This document shows positions 3,062 to 13,845 of a stretch of 26,721 nucleotides of DNA, piece after piece (within the stretch, counting starts at the first letter, position 1; each line of letters starts with the position of its first letter). A program made the position numbers and the translations under genes. Location of the stretch: positions 1-26,721 of the IMG/VR virus record IMGVR_UViG_3300046817_000598; one strand, given 5' to 3'. Origin of the DNA: a virus. The notes beneath the pieces are model-generated. The model saw nothing but the letters and a program-made list of their open reading frames with translations, had not been told where the DNA came from and did not search any database.

Positions 3062-3124
3062 TCATGGCGCGTGTCGCGGCCAAGGCCAAGCGGGGCAGAT
3101 GATCGCCAGCAGCAGCCAGATCAT
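3062..3124 (-). CDS. Possible 20-aa hydrophobic mini-protein
   Basis: A 20-codon ORF (begins MIWLLLAIICPAWPWP) starts with ATGA overlapping the deformylase stop and ends 6 nt before the terminase large subunit ATG. It bridges a 65-nt gap that would otherwise break translational coupling. Its product would be very hydrophobic. It could be a real micro-protein, a coupling leader peptide that feeds ribosomes into the terminase gene, or chance. There is no family support. Confidence 0.3.
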   Translation of the reverse strand: MIWLLLAIICPAWPWPRHAP

Positions 3125-3747
3125 GCTCGCATCGCCCCCAGCAACCGTTCGCGCTCCCACACATGGGCCGGAACGAAGTCGGGCAGCGTGCGCCCGTCAA
3201 GGTGATCGAGTTCGTGCTGGTAGGCGTGCGCCTCGCGGCCCCACAGATTGCGCTCGATCGGCGCGCCGGTCATCGACGTGAAGCGGACCTTGACGCCCTC
3301 GCTGCGATAGACGTTGAGGAACACGCCGGGGTAGCTCAGACAGCCCTCGCTGACCTTCTTGCGAGCGCCCAGGCGGACGCCGATCGACGGGTTGAAGCCG
3401 CCGGTCATCGACGTGAAGCGGACCTTGACGCCCAGGCGGACGCCGATCGACGGGTTGAAGCACACCAGCCCGGCCGCCGGGCCGAGCGCGATGCAGAAGA
3501 CCCGGCGCATGATGCCGATCTGCGGCGCGGCCAGCCCGACGCCGCCGGCCTTGCGCATGGTCAGGTTCAGCAGCTCGGCCAGCTCGCGGCGCTCGCCCAG
3601 CTCGTTAGCTGCGCCGCCGTCTATGTCGCCTCCGCCACCGAAGACCCACGGCTTGCACCGCTCGTGCAGGCGCGGGTCGCCGTCCTTCAGGATCAGGGGG
3701 CTGGTGTCGCCGAGCCCATACGTCAGCCCCGATCGATGCTCGACCAT
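3121..3747 (-). CDS. def: Peptide deformylase with internal 21-residue duplication
   Basis: Peptide deformylase removes the N-formyl group from nascent proteins, using a metal ion. All three motifs are present: motif I GVGLAAPQ (69-76), motif II EGCLS (134-138, metal ligand C136) and motif III HELDH (178-182, two His ligands and catalytic E179). The product is 208 aa. Between motifs I and II the protein reads FNPSIGVRLG (97-106), VKVRFTSMTG (107-116), then FNPSIGVRLG again (118-127). VKVRFTSMTG recurs at 152-161, where it fits the family fold. Removing 21 residues restores about 39 residues from motif I Gln to motif II Cys, close to the bacterial enzyme's 40. The gene sits between the two terminase genes with overlaps on both sides. 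Phage deformylases are known, mainly from marine phages. The extra segment may be a loop or may impair folding. Confidence 0.9.
   Translation of the reverse strand: MVEHRSGLTYGLGDTSPLILKDGDPRLHERCKPWVFGGGGDIDGGAANELGERRELAELLNLTMRKAGGVGLAAPQIGIMRRVFCIALGPAAGLVCFNPSIGVRLGVKVRFTSMTGGFNPSIGVRLGARKKVSEGCLSYPGVFLNVYRSEGVKVRFTSMTGAPIERNLWGREAHAYQHELDHLDGRTLPDFVPAHVWERERLLGAMRA
3264..3461. repeat. Interleaved direct repeats inside the deformylase gene
   Basis: Two sequences are each present twice. Repeat R1 (35 bp) is at 3264-3298 and 3399-3433. Repeat R2 (33 bp) is at 3366-3398 and 3429-3461. The second copy of R1 is wedged between the two R2 copies and shares 5 bp (CGCCC) with the second R2 copy. 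Net effect: 63 bp extra, a multiple of three. Copies are identical to the base where I aligned them by eye, which implies a recent event or an assembly artefact. Confidence 0.9.
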
Positions 3748-5363: not shown

Positions 5364-5731
5364 TGGATTCTCCCTAGGTTGATGGCGTGCTGGAGGGCTG
5401 AGGCGATGAAGGCGGCGCGCTCGCGCTGGCGCTCCATCTTGCGCTGCTGGTTGACCGCCTGGGTCACGGTCTCGACGTGATCGGGGCAGACGCAGAGCGT
5501 GAAGTTGCACAGGTGGTCTTCGTGATGACCGGGGACGTGGCCCTTGCCGAACATCACCGCGGCGACGATGTGGGCGCGCCGGGTGCGGCCATCGACCCAG
5601 AAGGAGCCGTACCACGTCTTGTTGCCCTTCCCGCGCGATCGGCCGCCTAGCCAAATCCAGCAGCCGCTCGGGTGCTTCATGACGTAGGACATGAAGCGGC
5701 GCTTGTCGTCGTCGGTGAAGCGGAAGGTCAT
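5360..5731 (-). CDS. HNH endonuclease
   Basis: A 123-aa protein of the HNH nuclease fold, which cuts DNA using a beta-beta-alpha-metal site. The visible core starts at CWIWLGGRSRGKGNKTWYGSF. It continues with RRAHIVAAVMFGK, then HHEDHLCNFTLCVCPDHVE, corresponding to the H...C/N...C.NP.H pattern of HNH_3-type proteins. A charged helix follows. ATG at 5731 overlaps the methyltransferase stop (ATGA); an upstream in-frame ATG at 5776 would overlap that gene by 48 nt and is less likely. HNH proteins next to terminases often assist DNA cutting during packaging. A solitary homing-type nuclease is the alternative. Confidence 0.82.
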   Translation of the reverse strand: MTFRFTDDDKRRFMSYVMKHPSGCWIWLGGRSRGKGNKTWYGSFWVDGRTRRAHIVAAVMFGKGHVPGHHEDHLCNFTLCVCPDHVETVTQAVNQQRKMERQRERAAFIASALQHAINLGRIQ

Positions 5732-6318
5732 AGGCTCAGCCCCCCCTCTTCGATCTGGTCGCCCCAGGACTCCCATCCGGCCCGGCGCTGGCGGGCGAAC
5801 AGCTCCAGCCTGGGGCCGCCGACCATCGCCTCGATCCGGTCATACAGCTCGGGCGGCTTCTCGCTGTGGCCGCCGCGCATGGCATAGATGATCTGTTCGA
5901 CGCCGCCGCTGAGCCGCTTCGGGTGGCCGCGCGTGAACAGCCACACCTGTTCGCCCTGCTTGCGGGACCAGTGGCCGAGACCGGGGACCGGCCAGCCTCC
6001 CTTGCGGGTCTTGACCCACCAATGGACGTCGGTCTTGAACTTGAACCCCCAGGCGGCGCCCAGCTCCAGCGTTTGCGCAAGGTGCGGGCCGAACGTCCAG
6101 ACGTAGAGGGCGCAGTCTCGGGCGGCGACGCTGGCGACGTCGAGCCGCTTCAGGTCGGCGAGGCTCACGGACTCGTAGAGCCGATCGGGCCGGCGGCTCG
6201 GGATCGTCGGGCCGCTGTAGGACATGAAGCGCCACGGCGGATCGGCGAGGATCACGCCGAAGGGTCCAGCCGGGAGCGGCGCGAAGGCGTGGGGCTCGAC
6301 GGTGGCGGCCGCGCTCAT
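5728..6318 (-). CDS. MT-A70 family adenine-N6 DNA methyltransferase
   Basis: Predicted to transfer a methyl group from S-adenosylmethionine to N6 of adenine, probably in phage DNA to evade host restriction. The product is 196 aa. The catalytic DPPW motif is at residues 26-29 (GVILADPPWRF). Downstream come the family pattern ALYVWTFGPHLAQTLEL, WVKTRKGGW and EQVWLFTRGHPKRL, and the terminal helix KPPELYDRIEAMVGGPRLELFARQ, which is highly characteristic. It overlaps DUF1376 upstream (ATGA at 6315-6318) and HNH downstream. No cognate restriction enzyme is in view, so it acts as an orphan methyltransferase. Confidence 0.93.
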   Translation of the reverse strand: MSAAATVEPHAFAPLPAGPFGVILADPPWRFMSYSGPTIPSRRPDRLYESVSLADLKRLDVASVAARDCALYVWTFGPHLAQTLELGAAWGFKFKTDVHWWVKTRKGGWPVPGLGHWSRKQGEQVWLFTRGHPKRLSGGVEQIIYAMRGGHSEKPPELYDRIEAMVGGPRLELFARQRRAGWESWGDQIEEGGLSL

Positions 6319-6929
6319 TCGGGCATCCTCTTGGTCTTCATCGTGGCGGCGAGGGCGCGCAGCTCGGCCTGCATCGTCGCCTTCTCTTCTGGCGTCATCG
6401 ACGCTTCAGCCGCCTTCGCCTGGGCGTGACGCGGATCGCCCACCGGCAGCGAATCCGCGCTCGCGCCCTGAAGGTGAAAGACTTTCCCCGAAGGGGAGTC
6501 TTTCACTTCAGGTGAAGGTGATGGTGATGTGCAGGGTTTAAGCACACCTTCAAGCAATGCTTGAGTGGTGCTTGAAGCAGCCTTTTTCGCGGCCTTGGCC
6601 CGTCCGCCCTTCGCCGCACGCTCGACGTAAGCCATCTTCCTAGCGACCGCACCGCGCAGCTCGCGCTCGACCCGTTTGTGGGTCCACACACCGAGCGCGA
6701 CCACGAAGAAGACGGCCAGCGCCGGGCGCATCAAGCGCCAGCGTGCCGGCGAGACACCGACGATCCGCGCCAAGCGGCGATCGTCGTCAGGCGGCGCGCC
6801 ACGGCGCCAGTAGTGGCGGACGAGTCGCCAATAAGCGCCGTCTTCCTCGCATGTCAGGTCCGCGGTGTCGGCGTCCCAATCGCCGACGAAGACGGGCATC
6901 CATGCCTTGACGTCTTCGGCCCCGGCCAC
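6315..6929 (-). CDS. DUF1376 (YdaU-like) protein, probable replication factor
   Basis: 204 aa from a GTG start at 6929. The N-terminus carries the DUF1376 signature: a W.P.FVGDW motif (WMPVFVGDW, 10-18), then TADLTCEEDGAYWRLVRHYW (about 22-41) and a DD.. LA.IVGVSPARW segment. DUF1376 proteins usually sit in phage replication modules beside helicase-loader or DnaA-like genes, as here, where a DnaA-domain protein ends 4 nt upstream. After about residue 85 the protein is basic and Ala/Lys rich (VERAAKGGRAKAAKKAA), then low complexity (CTSPSPSPEVKDSPSGK). The DNA of that middle segment holds a strong hairpin (6468-6511) and a palindromic heptamer array (6538-6575) with visibly lower GC than its surroundings. 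Function is inferred from family and context. Confidence 0.8.
   Translation of the reverse strand: MAGAEDVKAWMPVFVGDWDADTADLTCEEDGAYWRLVRHYWRRGAPPDDDRRLARIVGVSPARWRLMRPALAVFFVVALGVWTHKRVERELRGAVARKMAYVERAAKGGRAKAAKKAASSTTQALLEGVLKPCTSPSPSPEVKDSPSGKVFHLQGASADSLPVGDPRHAQAKAAEASMTPEEKATMQAELRALAATMKTKRMPE
6468..6511 (-). other. Stable RNA hairpin with cUUCGg tetraloop inside the DUF1376 gene
   Basis: On the leftward transcript two arms pair over 19 bp in three blocks: 6507-6511 with 6468-6472, 6497-6506 with 6474-6483, and 6493-6496 with 6486-6489. The interruptions are a 1-nt bulge (6473) and a 2-nt bulge (6484-6485). The tip reads CCCC-TTC-GGGG, that is a C(UUCG)G tetraloop. No U-run follows, so it is not a simple terminator. 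Confidence 0.75.
6538..6575. repeat. Palindromic TGCTTGA heptamer array (origin- or operator-like)
   Basis: Four copies of a 7-mer lie in 38 bp: TTAAGCA at 6538-6544 (one mismatch), TCAAGCA at 6550-6556, TGCTTGA at 6558-6564 and TGCTTGA at 6569-6575. The first two are inverted relative to the last two. Copies 3 and 4 are 11 bp apart, about one helical turn; copies 2 and 3 form a perfect 15-bp palindrome around one central base. It lies in coding DNA of the DUF1376 replication-type gene. Confidence 0.55.
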
Positions 6930-6933
6930 CGGA

Positions 6934-7275
6934 TCACGCGCGAGGGCGAGGGTAGGGGAGTCCGTTCAGCTCACAGTGTCGGCGGATGCCGTGCAGGACG
7001 GTGGTGTGATCCCGGCCGCCCAGGCGGCGGCCTATCTGCGGCAGGCTCATCTTGGTGAGGCGCGCCAGATCGTAGCAGGCTTCGAACCGGGCGCGGGCGT
7101 GCGGCCTGATCCGGCTGTCGCTGATCAGGATTCCGAAGCCCAGGTTGTGCTTGTCGGCGGCCGCCTGGATTATCGCCCGCCAGCCTGGAGCGCCGCGTGG
7201 CTGTGGAGAATTATGAGCCCAACCCAAGCTGTAGTTGGCGGACTCGATCTGAACCTCTAAATGTAGATCGATCAT
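6934..7275 (-). CDS. DnaA domain IV (C-terminal DNA-binding) protein
   Basis: A 113-aa protein carrying the DnaA C-terminal helix-turn-helix. The signature SLPQIGRRLGGRDHTTVLHG lies at residues 77-96 and matches the DnaA family pattern of a regulatory helix then GGRDHTTV, which reads DnaA boxes. A preceding helix (RARFEACYDLARLTKMSL) also fits domain IV. There is no AAA+ ATPase domain, so it cannot unwind DNA alone. It may mark the phage origin, recruit the host initiator, or compete with host DnaA. The start is well supported: ATG at 7275 follows a strong Shine-Dalgarno TTTAGGAGAA about 7 nt upstream. It is the first gene after a 94-nt leader, and DUF1376 begins 4 nt after its stop. Confidence 0.85.
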   Translation of the reverse strand: MIDLHLEVQIESANYSLGWAHNSPQPRGAPGWRAIIQAAADKHNLGFGILISDSRIRPHARARFEACYDLARLTKMSLPQIGRRLGGRDHTTVLHGIRRHCELNGLPYPRPRA

Positions 7276-7369
7276 GGCGCGTTCTCCTAAAGCGATGCGC
7301 TCTCAGTAGCCCCCGCGGCGCTCGCAACGTCGCGGGGGTTTTCACATTGCGGCGGCCCGCTGGCCGCGT
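7276..7369 (-). promoter_or_regulatory. Leader between the two DnaA-like genes, with strong hairpin
   Basis: This is the only real gap in the leftward operon between 8254 and the left edge. It holds an 8-bp GC hairpin (7310-7317 pairing with 7331-7338, 13-nt loop) and then the strong ribosome-binding site of the next gene. On the plus strand the hairpin is followed by TTTT (7339-7342) and looks like a rightward intrinsic terminator; on the leftward transcript it is a bare structured leader. I see no convincing promoter in it. Confidence 0.5.
7310..7342 (+). terminator. Rightward-facing terminator-like hairpin
   Basis: An 8-bp CCCCCGCG/CGCGGGGG stem with a 13-nt loop is followed by TTTT on the plus strand. 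No rightward gene precedes it in the window, so if functional it would stop antisense transcription into the replication genes. Confidence 0.4.
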
Positions 7370-7663
7370 CTAGGCCCCGACACTCAGGTTCTTGTGGGCG
7401 CGCCGCGGCTGGTATCCTTCGGCCCGCGCGCGATAGCTGTGCAGGCGGTTTCGCGAGACCCCGAACCACCGGGCGATCTGGTCGAGCCCATAGCGCGGCT
7501 TGCCGTCCACGGTCAGCTCGGCCACCGCCTGCATGGCGATCGACCGGGCGCGGACCTCGCCGGCGATCCGGCGGTGCGGACTCAGCACGGTCTCGGGCTC
7601 GACTTCGCAGCGAGCGGCCACGCGCTCGATCACGCGGCGGACGGTCTCGGGGATTTCGCTCAT
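7370..7663 (-). CDS. Divergent DnaA domain IV-like helix-turn-helix protein
   Basis: A 97-aa DNA-binding protein. Its layout follows DnaA domain IV: RRVIERVAARCEVEPETVLS, then PHRRIAGEVRARSIAMQAVA (the family's 'R...v..AR.iAm.l' helix), then a second helix-turn-helix YGLDQIARWFGVSRNRLHSY. The position of GGRDHTTV is occupied by GVSRNRLHSY, so the box-reading loop differs and the target is probably not a standard DnaA box. A generic helix-turn-helix regulator is the alternative. ATG at 7663 overlaps the VRR-NUC stop (ATGA); longer in-frame starts would run deep into that gene. It is the immediate upstream neighbour of the canonical DnaA-domain gene. Confidence 0.7.
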   Translation of the reverse strand: MSEIPETVRRVIERVAARCEVEPETVLSPHRRIAGEVRARSIAMQAVAELTVDGKPRYGLDQIARWFGVSRNRLHSYRARAEGYQPRRAHKNLSVGA

Positions 7664-8238
7664 CGCTTCAGGATCACTCCGCTCGGCAGAATCGTTGCGT
7701 GCAGCGTAACGCCCCAGGCGCGCAAGGTGCGCTCGACCTCTTCGACGGTGCGGGCTTCGGCCCAGCTCCAGCCGACCGCGGCCATGTCGCGGCCGAAGGT
7801 CTCTTGCTCGCCGGTCAGCGTGTTCTTGCCGGCCTTCAGCTCGATCGTCCCGAAGTTCGGGAATTGGAGCTGCGCGCCCGAGCGCCAGATGAAATGCAGA
7901 TCGTGGACGCCGGGCGTCAGCCCCATCGCCTTGAAGCGGCCAGCCTGGGCTTTCGAGAGGTTGCCGCCGTTGGGGCAGAACCACACCCGGTCAGGTCTCT
8001 TCAGCGCCAGCCGCAGGAACTCGATCGTGTGCGCCTGAAGCGTCTCTTCCGGCTGCGAACGGTGAGCCCCAGCCCTTCGCCGGGCTCCAGTGGTGGGGGC
8101 TGTCGCCGCGCCGCCCAGGCTCCGCGCAATCGCGGCGGCCAGTTTCGCGTTCCCAGGTGCAGCGGCGCCAGCAGTAGGCGACGCCGGGGTTGATCGTGCG
8201 CGGGTCAAGGTGGCGACACTCGCCGCACGTCGGACCAT
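7660..8238 (-). CDS. VRR-NUC domain nuclease (start uncertain)
   Basis: The C-terminal ~115 residues form a VRR-NUC domain, a PD-(D/E)XK-type nuclease fold found in phage proteins and in FAN1. Visible core: the PEETLQAHTIEFL helix, VWFCPNGG, GLTPGVHDLHFIW (catalytic Asp) and GTIELKAGKNTLTGEQ, with E-x-K (ELK) followed by the Q-containing helix. Phage VRR-NUC proteins usually act in Holliday-junction or flap processing. No ATG, GTG or TTG lies close upstream of the domain. The nearest in-frame starts are TTG at 8208 and ATG at 8238 (used here) or 8355, all of which overlap the Cys-rich ORF in another frame. Codon use suggests true coding in this frame begins near 8075. See the finding on a possible frameshift. 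Confidence 0.75.
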   Translation of the reverse strand: MVRRAASVATLTRARSTPASPTAGAAAPGNAKLAAAIARSLGGAATAPTTGARRRAGAHRSQPEETLQAHTIEFLRLALKRPDRVWFCPNGGNLSKAQAGRFKAMGLTPGVHDLHFIWRSGAQLQFPNFGTIELKAGKNTLTGEQETFGRDMAAVGWSWAEARTVEEVERTLRAWGVTLHATILPSGVILKR

Positions 8239-8254
8239 CGTCAGCGCTGGACAT
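7991..8254 (-). CDS. Small Cys-rich (zinc-ribbon-like) ORF, overlapping VRR-NUC
   Basis: An 87-codon ORF whose first ~50 residues look coding: CGECRHLD near residues 10-17, CWRRC near 28-32 and DCAE near 42-45, spaced like small phage zinc-binding proteins. GC at third codon positions is high until about residue 60 (SPAKGW). It then drops while the +1 frame (VRR-NUC) takes over. So either the true stop has been lost, or the two form a frameshifted fusion. It would be the first gene of the leftward operon; a GC hairpin lies just 4 nt before its ATG, and I see no clear Shine-Dalgarno. Confidence 0.5.
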   Translation of the reverse strand: MSSADDGPTCGECRHLDPRTINPGVAYCWRRCTWERETGRRDCAEPGRRGDSPHHWSPAKGWGSPFAAGRDASGAHDRVPAAGAEET

Positions 8255-8258
8255 GGAG

Positions 8259-8290
8259 GCGGCCGCGCCCCGTAGGAGAGGCGCGGCCGC
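8259..8290. repeat. Perfect 11-bp inverted repeat upstream of the leftward operon
   Basis: GCGGCCGCGCC at 8259-8269 pairs with its exact complement at 8280-8290, with a 10-nt loop. It ends 4 nt before the ATG at 8254 and would fold over the ribosome-binding region on the leftward mRNA. No T-run follows on either strand. Confidence 0.7.
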
Positions 8291-8345
8291 TTGGCCGCAG
8301 GACAACGCTTTTGAGGGCGGGGAAGAGCCCGGCGACCCGAGTCGG

Positions 8346-8375
8346 TGGATAGCATCGCCGGCGGCGCGTGTGCAA
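8346..8375 (-). promoter_or_regulatory. Candidate leftward promoter
   Basis: On the minus strand TTGCAC (8375-8370) is followed 18 nt later by TATCCA (8351-8346). The -35 is near consensus and the -10 is weak. The position, about 95 nt upstream of the first leftward ORF, is sensible. Sequence judgement only. Confidence 0.3.
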
Positions 8376-8418
8376 CATAAGCCCCTCATGCGCCCTGGAA
8401 TCGTCCACCGTCAAGCCA

Positions 8419-8758: not shown

Positions 8759-8980
8759 ATGCCTTCGCCGATCAACGATTACTTCCGCGACAACAACGAC
8801 GAGCGGATCGCCTGCACGATGGAATACGACAAGGCGATGGAGTTGCCCGACACGACCGTGGGCGATCCGTTCTATGCGATCAGCGAGCGCGACCGGGCGA
8901 TGCTTGCCTGGGTCGAGCGTTGGGGCGCGAAGCTCCGCGACTATGTTTCGCCCTTCGCTGCGCACGCGCCGCGGCCATGA
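8759..8980 (+). CDS. Unknown 73-aa early protein
   Basis: A short acidic protein (begins MPSPINDYFRDNNDERIAC) starting 3 nt after the previous stop. Its TGA overlaps the ATG of the sliding clamp gene (ATGA at 8977-8980), so the two are translationally coupled. No domain is recognised. The middle contains a short helix with aromatic residues (MLAWVERWGAKLRDYV). Confidence 0.6.
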   Translation: MPSPINDYFRDNNDERIACTMEYDKAMELPDTTVGDPFYAISERDRAMLAWVERWGAKLRDYVSPFAAHAPRP

Positions 8981-10116
8981 AGTTCACCATCGAGCGCAAG
9001 AGCGCCCACGCCGCGATGACGGCGCTGCACGGGACGGTTCTCAGCCGCACCACCATCCCGATCCTTCAGAACGTGCTGATCACCGCCCGCGACGGGCTCT
9101 TGAGCCTGACGGTCACGGACCTTGACCAGTGCGTCACCTTCGCCGTCGCCGACGCGCAGATCGCCGTCGAGGGCGCGACCACCGTCGCGTTCGGCAAGCT
9201 GCGCGATATCGTGGGCGTCAGCCCCCAGGGCGGCGAACTCGCCTTCAGCAAGGCCGACACGCGACTCAGCGTCATGTGCGGCGGCTCGCGCTACGCGCTG
9301 CCCCAGCTCCCGGCCAGCGACTTCCCGGTGCTGAGCGCCGAAGCCACCGCCGCCAGCTTCACGATCGAGGCGCGGGTGCTGCATCGCCTGCTAGTCGCCG
9401 GCGGGTTCGCCGCGGCGTCCGACAAGGATGCGCGCGGCTACCTGCGCAGCGTCTATCTGCACACCCCGACGCCCGACACGATCCGCGTCGTCTCGACGGA
9501 CAGCTTTCGCTTCACCTACTGCGAGGCGGCCGCTCCAGCGGGCTTCGCGTGGGAGCGGGGTACGATGCTCAGCCCCGCGTCGGCCGCCACCATCGAGCGG
9601 CTACTGAGCAACGTAGCCCCCGATGCCGAAGTGAGCGTCGAGCTGGCCCCTGAGCGGGCCGTGCTGGGGATAGGGCAGGCAACCCTGGTGACGAAGGTCA
9701 TAGACGGCTCTTATCCGGCCTATGACCGGGTGATCCCGCGCGAGTTCGTCGCCGAGCTGACGATGGACGTCGATCTGCTCGACACCGCCATCAAGCGCGC
9801 TCAGATCATGGGCGACACCCGCACCGGCCGCGTGGCGATGGCGATCGAGCCGGGAACCTTGCGCTTCCGCGCCGCCAACGTGGACGGCGGCGAGGCGATC
9901 GATGACGTGGCGATCGACTACGACGGCGAGTCGATCGGGCTCGGCGTCAACGGCCAGTGGTTCCGCGAGCTGCTGAGCTACGTCACCACCGAGTCGGTGA
10001 TCCTGCGCTTCGCCAACTTCGCCGGCGCAACCTCACGCGAGACATTAGCCGTGACATTCCGTTCGACGTCTGATAACCCGGATTGGTACGGATTGTTGGC
10101 GCCCCGAGCGAACTGA
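8977..10116 (+). CDS. dnaN: DNA polymerase III beta subunit (sliding clamp)
   Basis: Predicted ring-shaped clamp that tethers polymerase III to DNA. The 379 aa make it full length (cellular clamps are about 366-380). Features: N-terminal MKFTIERKSAHAAMTALHGTV; the clamp hallmark SRTTIPILQNVLI (26-38), where cellular clamps have R.T.PIL.N; FGKLRDIV and LPQLPASDFPVL in the first domain; a central VIDGSYPAYDRVIP, matching the cellular G.FP.Y..VIP; and in the third domain MAIEPGTLRFRAAN and the ending FRSTSDNPDWYGLLAPRAN, where cellular clamps end with the P.R region lining the partner pocket. ATG at 8977 overlaps the upstream stop; longer in-frame readings upstream cross two other genes. A phage-borne clamp is uncommon and suggests use of host polymerase III on phage DNA. 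Confidence 0.93.
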   Translation: MKFTIERKSAHAAMTALHGTVLSRTTIPILQNVLITARDGLLSLTVTDLDQCVTFAVADAQIAVEGATTVAFGKLRDIVGVSPQGGELAFSKADTRLSVMCGGSRYALPQLPASDFPVLSAEATAASFTIEARVLHRLLVAGGFAAASDKDARGYLRSVYLHTPTPDTIRVVSTDSFRFTYCEAAAPAGFAWERGTMLSPASAATIERLLSNVAPDAEVSVELAPERAVLGIGQATLVTKVIDGSYPAYDRVIPREFVAELTMDVDLLDTAIKRAQIMGDTRTGRVAMAIEPGTLRFRAANVDGGEAIDDVAIDYDGESIGLGVNGQWFRELLSYVTTESVILRFANFAGATSRETLAVTFRSTSDNPDWYGLLAPRAN

Positions 10117-12713: not shown

Positions 12714-13845
12714 CGGCATTTGGCTTGATCTTCCGCACGAAGCCCACGTCGCCGACCCGGCGCTGGGCTCCGGCGATCTGAAGCAACTCCTGATCAACCC
12801 GGTCTTCTGGCATGGGTCGCAGCGCAATCCGACGTGGCGGCGCATCCTCGCGGACTCCAAGCCCCTGAAGAAGCGGGAGTCCGAAGCGGCCGGCAAGCGG
12901 TTCGGCTCATGCCTGCATACCGCCGTCATCGAGCCCGACCAATTCGATGCGCGCTACTTCGTGCGCCCGCCGCGGCCCGATCTGCCCTCCACCAAGGAAC
13001 AGATGGCCGACGCCCTGCGCGCGATCGGCCAGACACCGCCGAGCATGGGGCGCAAGGCGATCGAGTTCGAAGCCGCCTGCGCCGCCTGGGGGATCGAGCT
13101 GGCGGATAGCTGGGACGTGCGAGTCGCCGAGCTGGCGGACGGGCGCGACGTCATCAGCGAGACCACCCGGCAGTCGGTCGAGCTGACCGCCCGCGTGGTC
13201 GATCGCCACAGCGAGGCGCGCAAGTTCCTTTCGAGCGGCCGGGCCGAAGTCTCGATGTTCTGGACCGACGAACACGGCGACCGCTACAAGGCGCGCTTCG
13301 ACTACCTGCGCATCCGCACGCTGGCCGATCTGAAGACCTTCGCCAACGCCCAGGGCGGCGACACGATCGCCGTCTTCAACGCCTCCCGCGAGAAGTTCGC
13401 CTATGAGGTTCAGGCGGCCTACTACATGGAGGCGCGGACCACGATCCTCCCCGAGTTGGTGGCGAAGCGGAAGATTTGGCGCGGGATGCCCGAGCCCGGC
13501 GAGGATGGCGCCGTCTTCGCCCGGCCGCCCACCGCCGACGATCTGGCGTTCTTCGACAAGGTGGCCGACTTCACCGACCCGTCGTGGTGGTGGGTCGCGG
13601 TCTCGACCCAGGGGATTCCCGAGTGCGACACGATCGAGTTCCCCACCGGGCTGATCGCGTTCTCATCCGCCAAGGTGCAGGCCGATCTGGCGCGCGAGAA
13701 CTACCGGGTGATGCGCGAGCGCTTCGGCCAAGACGACGCCGAAATGTGGGTCGCCGATCGCGGGCTGCTGCGCCTGACCGAGTTCAACTTTACCCGCCGT
13801 AGCCTCGATCGAGGCGCGGTGCTACACGAGTCAATCACGTCCTGA
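12700..13845 (+). CDS. RecE-like PD-(D/E)XK exonuclease
   Basis: A 381-aa nuclease paired with RecT. Phage RecE-type enzymes chew one strand of double-stranded ends so RecT can anneal the remaining strand. Signature pieces: GKRFGSCLHTAVIEPDQFD near 65-83 (conserved 'G...H..ll.P..F'); KARFDYL (198-204) giving the first Asp D201; LADLKT (208-213) giving D210 and K212; and YEVQAAYYMEA (235-245), the QxxxY-type helix. This is the RecE/PDDEXK-family order. ATG at 12700 was chosen because it lies near the end of the preceding gene (14-nt overlap); longer readings cross that gene. RecT follows 14 nt after. Confidence 0.85.
   Translation: MLIPDGIWLDLPHEAHVADPALGSGDLKQLLINPVFWHGSQRNPTWRRILADSKPLKKRESEAAGKRFGSCLHTAVIEPDQFDARYFVRPPRPDLPSTKEQMADALRAIGQTPPSMGRKAIEFEAACAAWGIELADSWDVRVAELADGRDVISETTRQSVELTARVVDRHSEARKFLSSGRAEVSMFWTDEHGDRYKARFDYLRIRTLADLKTFANAQGGDTIAVFNASREKFAYEVQAAYYMEARTTILPELVAKRKIWRGMPEPGEDGAVFARPPTADDLAFFDKVADFTDPSWWWVAVSTQGIPECDTIEFPTGLIAFSSAKVQADLARENYRVMRERFGQDDAEMWVADRGLLRLTEFNFTRRSLDRGAVLHESITS

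Follow-up and report, generated by a model that had tools for sequence, protein, structure and literature searches.

Two ATPase-free DnaA domain IV proteins beside a phage DUF1376 gene that contains a candidate replication origin

Gene order at the locus

The window analysed here is a 26,721-base phage record from IMG/VR. Its minus strand carries two adjacent genes for proteins with a DnaA domain IV, P0001 and P0002 (Table 1). The transcription order on this strand is nuclease-like protein, P0002, P0001, DUF1376 protein, MT-A70 methyltransferase and HNH endonuclease, and then the terminase genes. An operon on the plus strand encodes a full sliding clamp (DnaN), a RecE-like exonuclease and a RecT-like annealing protein. 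The first-pass annotation had placed a DUF1376 gene beside the DnaA-like pair and a full DnaN in the rightward operon, and profile matches confirm both assignments. The surroundings of the pair are of replication type, as had been proposed. They include the clamp, the RecE/RecT-like genes and the DUF1376 gene, annotated as 'primosomal protein' (PHROG) or as 'DNA replication protein O'.

Table 1. Genes and sequence features of the locus (window coordinates).
Feature	Position	Strand	Remarks
MT-A70 methyltransferase	5728-6318	-	after DUF1376 in transcription order
DUF1376 protein	6315..6929	-	PF07120 E 8e-22; phrog_3992 E 1e-19
Hairpin GTGAAAGACT-N13-AGTCTTTCAC	6474..6506	-	in DUF1376 gene; inner CCCC/GGGG stem
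CATCACCATCACCTTCACCT tract (TCACC)	6510..6529	-	beside the iteron-like repeats; codes SPSPSP
Iteron-like repeats	6540..6579	-	five AAGCA/TGCTT in 40 bp; candidate origin, inside DUF1376 gene
P0001	6934..7275	-	DnaA domain IV, strict type, 113 aa
P0002	7370..7663	-	DnaA domain IV, divergent type, 97 aa
Nuclease-like protein	7660..8031	-	phrog_824; upstream of P0002, co-directional; orthologue in L003
DnaN sliding clamp	8977..10116	+	379 aa; three DNA_pol3_beta domains; phrog_947 E 5e-50

The tandem arrangement of two DnaA domain IV genes was identified only in the window and in L003, a relative of 54 kb. Loss of this adjacency in relatives had been named beforehand as a refuting result, and the one close relative keeps the two genes side by side. 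A GC-rich hairpin lies between the P0002 and P0001 genes at 7310-7342 (CCCCCGCG-N13-CGCGGGGG, with the stem-loop at 7310..7338), with TTTT then following on the plus strand. Its stem is preserved in L003 via a compensatory C-G to G-C change. The region directly upstream of P0002 appears to be an insertion or deletion hot spot, as judged by comparison of the two records: DNA methyltransferase and PAPS-reductase-like genes lie around the nuclease-like gene in L003 (3724-6004) and are absent from the window (7660-8400). Elsewhere, the phage peptide deformylase (3121-3747, minus strand) differs from its L003 orthologue by an internal duplication, with VKVRFTSMTGGFNPSIGVRLG inserted behind FNPSIGVRLG. 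The extra stretch resembles a patchwork copied from sequence further downstream, or may be an artefact of assembly.

The two DnaA domain IV proteins

P0001 is a member of the Bac_DnaA_C family (PF08299; 57.9 bits, E 1e-15, gathering cut-off 31.5 bits) and matches domain IV of E. coli DnaA (1j1v) with an E value of 1.3e-8. The recognition motif RDHTT is intact (GGRDHTTVLH). These matches bear out the initial description of a canonical, ATPase-free DnaA C-terminal domain with the motif GGRDHTTV. E. coli DnaA contacts TnCACA through the helix that begins at residue 434 and the TTA half of the box through R399, and its T435M and R399A variants are defective in box binding (PMC5742627). P0001 retains the residues for reading the TnCACA half of a DnaA box. 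The minor-groove arginine equivalent to R399 is present in P0001 and missing from its relative, P0006; because of this absence, classical box binding may be weakened. The pair shares the fold of bacterial DnaA, and P0001 shares its DHTT residues. Unlike bacterial DnaA, however, the pair lacks the AAA+ ATPase and domain I, and would not oligomerise or melt DNA by the known mechanism.

The P0001 orthologue in L003 is 74% identical (dN/dS 0.47), and the helix-turn-helix (HTH) is mostly unchanged. The P0001 gene opens (about 7200-7275, minus strand) with 20 codons that are AT-rich and rare (CTA CAT TTA) and whose wobble sites are nearly identical in L003. Together, the rare codons and the conserved wobble sites suggest an overlapping DNA or RNA signal at the gene start.

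P0002 scores below the PF08299 cut-off (22.3 bits against 31.5 bits; E 1.4e-4), but this is still its best Pfam match, with HTH_23 weaker (E 0.017). Its orthologue was recovered by a profile of phage DnaA domain IV sequences (E 9.7e-5). Structure prediction, which the first-pass annotation had suggested, gave an AF2 model with a pLDDT of 76, built on two sequences only. The first six Foldseek hits of this model are all DnaA domain IV structures (probability 1.00, TM about 0.66), and VIA comparison with six DnaA entries gave Z scores of 9.8-11.3, the next unrelated fold reaching 5.6. P0002 is thus assigned to the DnaA domain IV fold, its matches there standing well clear of those to other HTH folds. 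A clear score in an unrelated HTH family, which the first-pass annotation had named as a refuting result, was not obtained.

The sequence of P0002 reads GVSRNRLHSY where P0001 has GRDHTTVLHG (RDHTT replaced by VSRNR), and there is a 'DGKP' insertion ahead of the HTH. SRNR replaces the DHTT major-groove residues in the P0002 proteins of both phages, and thus P0002 should not read the DnaA box. The earlier prediction that the altered loop confers a different DNA target is upheld in the sense of a probably different, or lost, specificity. The L003 orthologue is 91% identical and its altered helix is nearly identical. With a dN/dS of 0.24 (0.47 for P0001), P0002 is under purifying selection. The P0002 profile finds a Caulobacteraceae homologue (L222, E 1.5e-6) that has the same unusual DGKP/DGRP insertion before the HTH and retains DHTT. 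Given this shared insertion, P0002 probably derives from a DHTT-bearing lineage in which the motif was later lost. Relatives of P0002 were not identified in annotated phages and plasmids, and were found in one contig only among viral contigs.

P0002 had been described as a divergent copy of its neighbour. Membership in the same fold family stands, but a recent duplication is not supported: direct comparison of P0001 and P0002 gave no significant alignment (BLASTP E 2.2; hhalign probability 37).

Among 160 DUF1376 loci fetched irrespective of DnaA, a single strict DnaA domain IV gene occurs near DUF1376 in 20 (a few of them near-duplicates, such as L013/L014), and two copies occur in none. The linked gene is on the same strand in 20/20 and within 1.5 kb in 19/20, and D-H is retained in every strict copy. 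Genes of the P0001 type accompany the DUF1376 gene in many alphaproteobacterial phages. In one locus (L013, 84-701), the DnaA domain IV protein beside DUF1376 is fused to an extra N-terminal helix-turn-helix (HTH_38). Rhizobium phage RHph_N28_2 (MN988516) resembles the window in having a stand-alone strict DnaA domain IV gene immediately beside DUF1376, annotated as 'chromosomal replication initiator DnaA-like domain-containing protein', and resembles L003 in having PAPS-reductase and methyltransferase genes nearby. Unlike the window, it encodes one DnaA domain IV protein of 191 aa with a long N-terminal part, downstream of DUF1376. The survey and this annotated phage make the link between strict DnaA domain IV proteins and DUF1376 a recurrent one that is already present in public annotation. 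It is the second, re-programmed copy that appears to be peculiar to this phage group.

Repeats and hairpins within DUF1376 genes

In the AF2 model of the DUF1376 protein (pLDDT 85), a long helix comes after a domain whose secondary structure resembles a winged helix. Foldseek matches are to mixed winged-helix proteins and are all weak (best E 0.03). Five AAGCA/TGCTT repeats lie in the gene just 3' of the sequence for the conserved domain, where synonymous-codon shuffles give 0.67 on average (p 0.005, the lowest possible). The repeats are coding sequence as well, and the shuffles account for composition and for the protein sequence, though not for all codon constraints. In the alignment of the window with L003, this stretch is almost identical in DNA sequence, wobble positions included, while the flanks vary. 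The repeats lie inside the gene of a candidate initiator, next to its putative DNA-binding domain, and are more conserved than coding requires. A hairpin follows the repeats and the TCACC tract. L003 has GGGAATAACG...CGTTATTCCC in its place, and the stems of relatives differ there. An Rfam match of the in-gene hairpin to sR38 (E 0.015, far below the cut-off) was discarded, leaving no family assignment.

We surveyed other DUF1376 genes for such features. The AAGCA motif had been picked from the window and L003 before other genes were tested; clusters of AAGCA/TGCTT 3' of the domain reach the lowest possible p of synonymous-codon shuffles in 30/166 genes. Repeats of any sequence do so in 66/166, where about 1.6 would be expected (near-duplicates were kept in both of these tests). 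Significant clusters lie mostly 0-110 nt past the end of the domain. The units vary among phages (GCAATGCTCCAA, TATAGTTGAAGG, ACCTATAGGTAA and others), and the position is constant. A TCACC-like tract follows the repeats in many of the iteron-bearing genes.

The loci were collected by pattern scans, and near-duplicates among them were reduced for the hairpin and CTRACG tests, which left 131 or 130 genes. Inverted repeats reach the lowest p in 35/130 genes (5 expected). The sequence CTRACG, 100-320 nt after the domain, is flanked by perfect stems of at least 5 bp in 22/38 cases, compared to 4/619 elsewhere on the same strand (p 5e-27) and 3/481 on the other strand. Hairpins with this loop were found in L036, L047, L049, L059, L075, L112, L118, L148, L151, L161, L171 and other loci; those listed sit about 146-272 nt past the end of the domain, with a fixed loop and freely varying stems. 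Three of these loci (L059, L112, L148) have two CTRACG hairpins in tandem, 21 nt apart. No Rfam match to the CTRACG hairpin was found. Repeats and hairpins also occur in DUF1376 genes of phages without DnaA domain IV neighbours.

Inverted repeats (TGTTCAAACA/TGTTTGAACA) are present at the corresponding post-domain place in ydaU, the DUF1376 gene of the E. coli Rac prophage (L172 2860-2913, Rac-SA53). Rac carries an active origin, oriJ (PMC3945230), and a link between it and the ydaU repeats is possible. We do not use ydaU as proof of an in-gene origin because the literature that we found does not place oriJ in this gene.

The layout can be likened to that of lambda, where the origin lies inside gene O and is built of in-gene repeats (PMC7466680). 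In-gene repeats likewise served as evidence for the O-like protein of Pseudomonas phage MD8 (PMC8508860). The likeness between DUF1376 and lambda O is one of layout, and we make no claim of homology. In lambda the repeats are mid-gene, whereas in DUF1376 genes they are just 3' of the conserved domain. The DUF1376 repeats are also shorter than those of ori-lambda (units of 11-12 bp or less), and are associated with the TCACC tract and often with a CTRACG-loop hairpin. The repeats, tract and hairpin are a better origin candidate than DnaA boxes. Against this candidate, the array in the window consists of five short repeats only, and its hairpin, with a TTC loop, is outside the CTRACG class.

DnaA boxes, replication genes and possible roles

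With one mismatch to the consensus tolerated, the window has 6 DnaA boxes where 5.7 would be expected, and L003 shows no excess either. Exact boxes within 2.5 kb of DUF1376 in 22 loci that carry DnaA domain IV genes number 3, where 2.9 are expected. DnaA boxes were therefore rejected as a sign of a DnaA-recognised origin at these loci. A DnaA AAA+ ATPase (PF00308) was not identified in the window or in the 54-kb L003 record, both possibly fragments, in agreement with the first description of the pair as lacking an ATPase. Clamp-loader delta-prime (PF13177), DnaB helicase and a DnaC/IstB loader are also absent from these two possibly fragmentary records. The clamp resembles the full-length, alphaproteobacterial DnaN proteins of Rhizobium phage 16-3 and Aurantimonas phage AmM-1, with identities of about 30-33%. 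In the survey, a clamp gene lies within about 5-6 kb of DUF1376 in three cases only: this phage, L003 and, as a weak case, L112.

The first-pass annotation had joined these genes into a module in which DnaA-fold proteins recognise the origin and the phage then loads its own clamp. The first step is not favoured by the box counts, and a better candidate origin lies inside the DUF1376 gene. The second is at odds with the missing delta-prime, DnaB and DnaC/IstB genes and with the confinement of clamp-DUF1376 proximity to this group and L112. Thus, because boxes, loader, helicase and clamp linkage are all wanting, the proposed chain is unsupported beyond co-location.

Our leading explanation, which we hold at slightly less than even confidence, is that DUF1376 is an initiator with an in-gene origin and that the DnaA domain IV pair are ATPase-free accessories. 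The DUF1376 protein would most likely act on the repeats, TCACC tract and hairpin in its own gene, in the manner of lambda O. It would recruit the helicase, polymerase and clamp loader of the host, and the phage would supply the clamp. P0001 and P0002 would bind DNA as accessories, unable to melt it in the way of DnaA. The most likely role of P0001 is to compete with host DnaA at DnaA-type sites, or to steer it there; host sites are plausible targets because the box-reading residues are kept and the phage itself has no excess of boxes. P0002 probably binds another sequence as a regulator, similar to GafY (see below). The steady association of P0001-type genes with DUF1376 suggests that P0001 serves replication somehow. 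A point against the model is that this linkage to the initiator gene is left without explanation if P0001 targets host DnaA boxes.

We rank this role in a DUF1376-driven module first, and control of transcription is a strong rival. We found only two phage-derived, stand-alone DnaA domain IV proteins that have been characterised, GafA and GafY, and both are transcription activators (PMC6363796, PMC9632790, PMC11150451). For this reason P0001 and P0002 are best read as accessory regulators or competitors at DnaA sites, and not as the initiator. GafA, which has an N-terminal domain like the DnaA DNA-binding domain, directly activates gene transfer agent (GTA) genes (PMC6363796). GafY, a homologue of DnaA domain IV, binds promoters together with IHF, and is proposed not to act at oriC (PMC9632790, PMC11150451). 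Like the pair studied here, GafY (Caulobacter) and GafA (Rhodobacter) have the DnaA domain IV fold, lack the ATPase and belong to alphaproteobacterial phage-derived elements. GafY-like Caulobacteraceae proteins have RDRTT or LNRATA in place of RDHTT, so that they and P0002 both have an altered recognition motif; one of them, having lost DHTT, scores 24.4 bits against PF08299, close to the 22.3 bits of P0002. P0002 is thus of their kind, a DnaA domain IV fold probably redirected to a different target sequence.

It is possible, although in our estimation not probable, that both proteins are late- or early-gene activators of this kind with no part in replication, which would fit the lack of box excess in the phage. 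However, P0002 shows no specific affinity to GafY over other DnaA domain IV sequences, and differs from it in the DGKP insertion and the helix, as does P0001 in having DHTT. GafY pairs with GafZ (DUF6456, PF20057), and P0002 has no such partner in the window or L003 records (possibly fragments). A weak phmmer match to GafZ at 12869-13183 overlaps the exonuclease gene in a different reading frame, and we discarded it. Strict DnaA domain IV genes also accompany DUF1376, which a general late activator need not do.

A further, more doubtful explanation is that P0001 takes over the host, as a minimal DnaA-box binder that would occupy oriC and stop or mistime host initiation, with P0002 a partner or a leftover copy that drifts towards another function. 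D-H is kept across phages, yet DnaA boxes are not enriched near the module, so the specificity of P0001-type proteins may be for host DNA. The low dN/dS of P0002 points to purifying selection and not to drift. This explanation overlaps with the DUF1376 module; host-directed and accessory roles are not exclusive, and our confidences in them overlap for this reason.

The in-gene features may alternatively be a property of the mRNA or peptide, with a role in control of translation or transcription or a product of low-complexity linker evolution, and not an origin. The repeats and hairpins are transcribed and translated, the SPSPSP and SNAS-type linkers are of low complexity, and the CTRACG loops presumably resemble stable RNA tetraloops. 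We consider this unlikely, as the repeats and hairpins exceed synonymous shuffles and the repeats keep their position although their units differ. G-U pairs are also not favoured over A-C mismatches (3 versus 5), a count that gives no sign that the hairpin acts as RNA and does not discriminate between RNA and DNA. Least probable is that the phage origin is recognised by the DnaA-like pair, which would open replication there before the clamp is loaded: despite the DnaA fold within a phage module, the replication-type neighbours, the same-strand linkage to DUF1376 and the retention of the pair in L003, the ATPase is absent, DnaA boxes show no excess, and neither record yielded a clamp-loader delta-prime subunit, a helicase or a helicase loader. 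The repeats and hairpins point to DUF1376, and they also occur where DnaA domain IV neighbours are lacking.

Stand-alone DnaA domain IV proteins of phages are annotated as 'DnaA' or 'replication initiator', and we found no study of their role in replication in the literature. The strict and re-programmed copies side by side provide a clean test of domain IV acting alone. More tentatively, DUF1376 may be a widespread family of phage initiators with in-gene origins (rapidly evolving iterons together with a TCACC tract and a single or double hairpin with the fixed CTRACG loop). In Alphaproteobacteria, the module may have acquired DnaA domain IV satellites, the first specific for host-type DnaA sites and the second for a new target, which would couple or uncouple phage replication and host DnaA. 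The in-gene repeats and CTRACG hairpins predict where replication starts in a large and little-studied group of temperate phages. This prediction of an in-gene origin can be tested by synonymous recoding, and would offer a cheap model for many related viruses.
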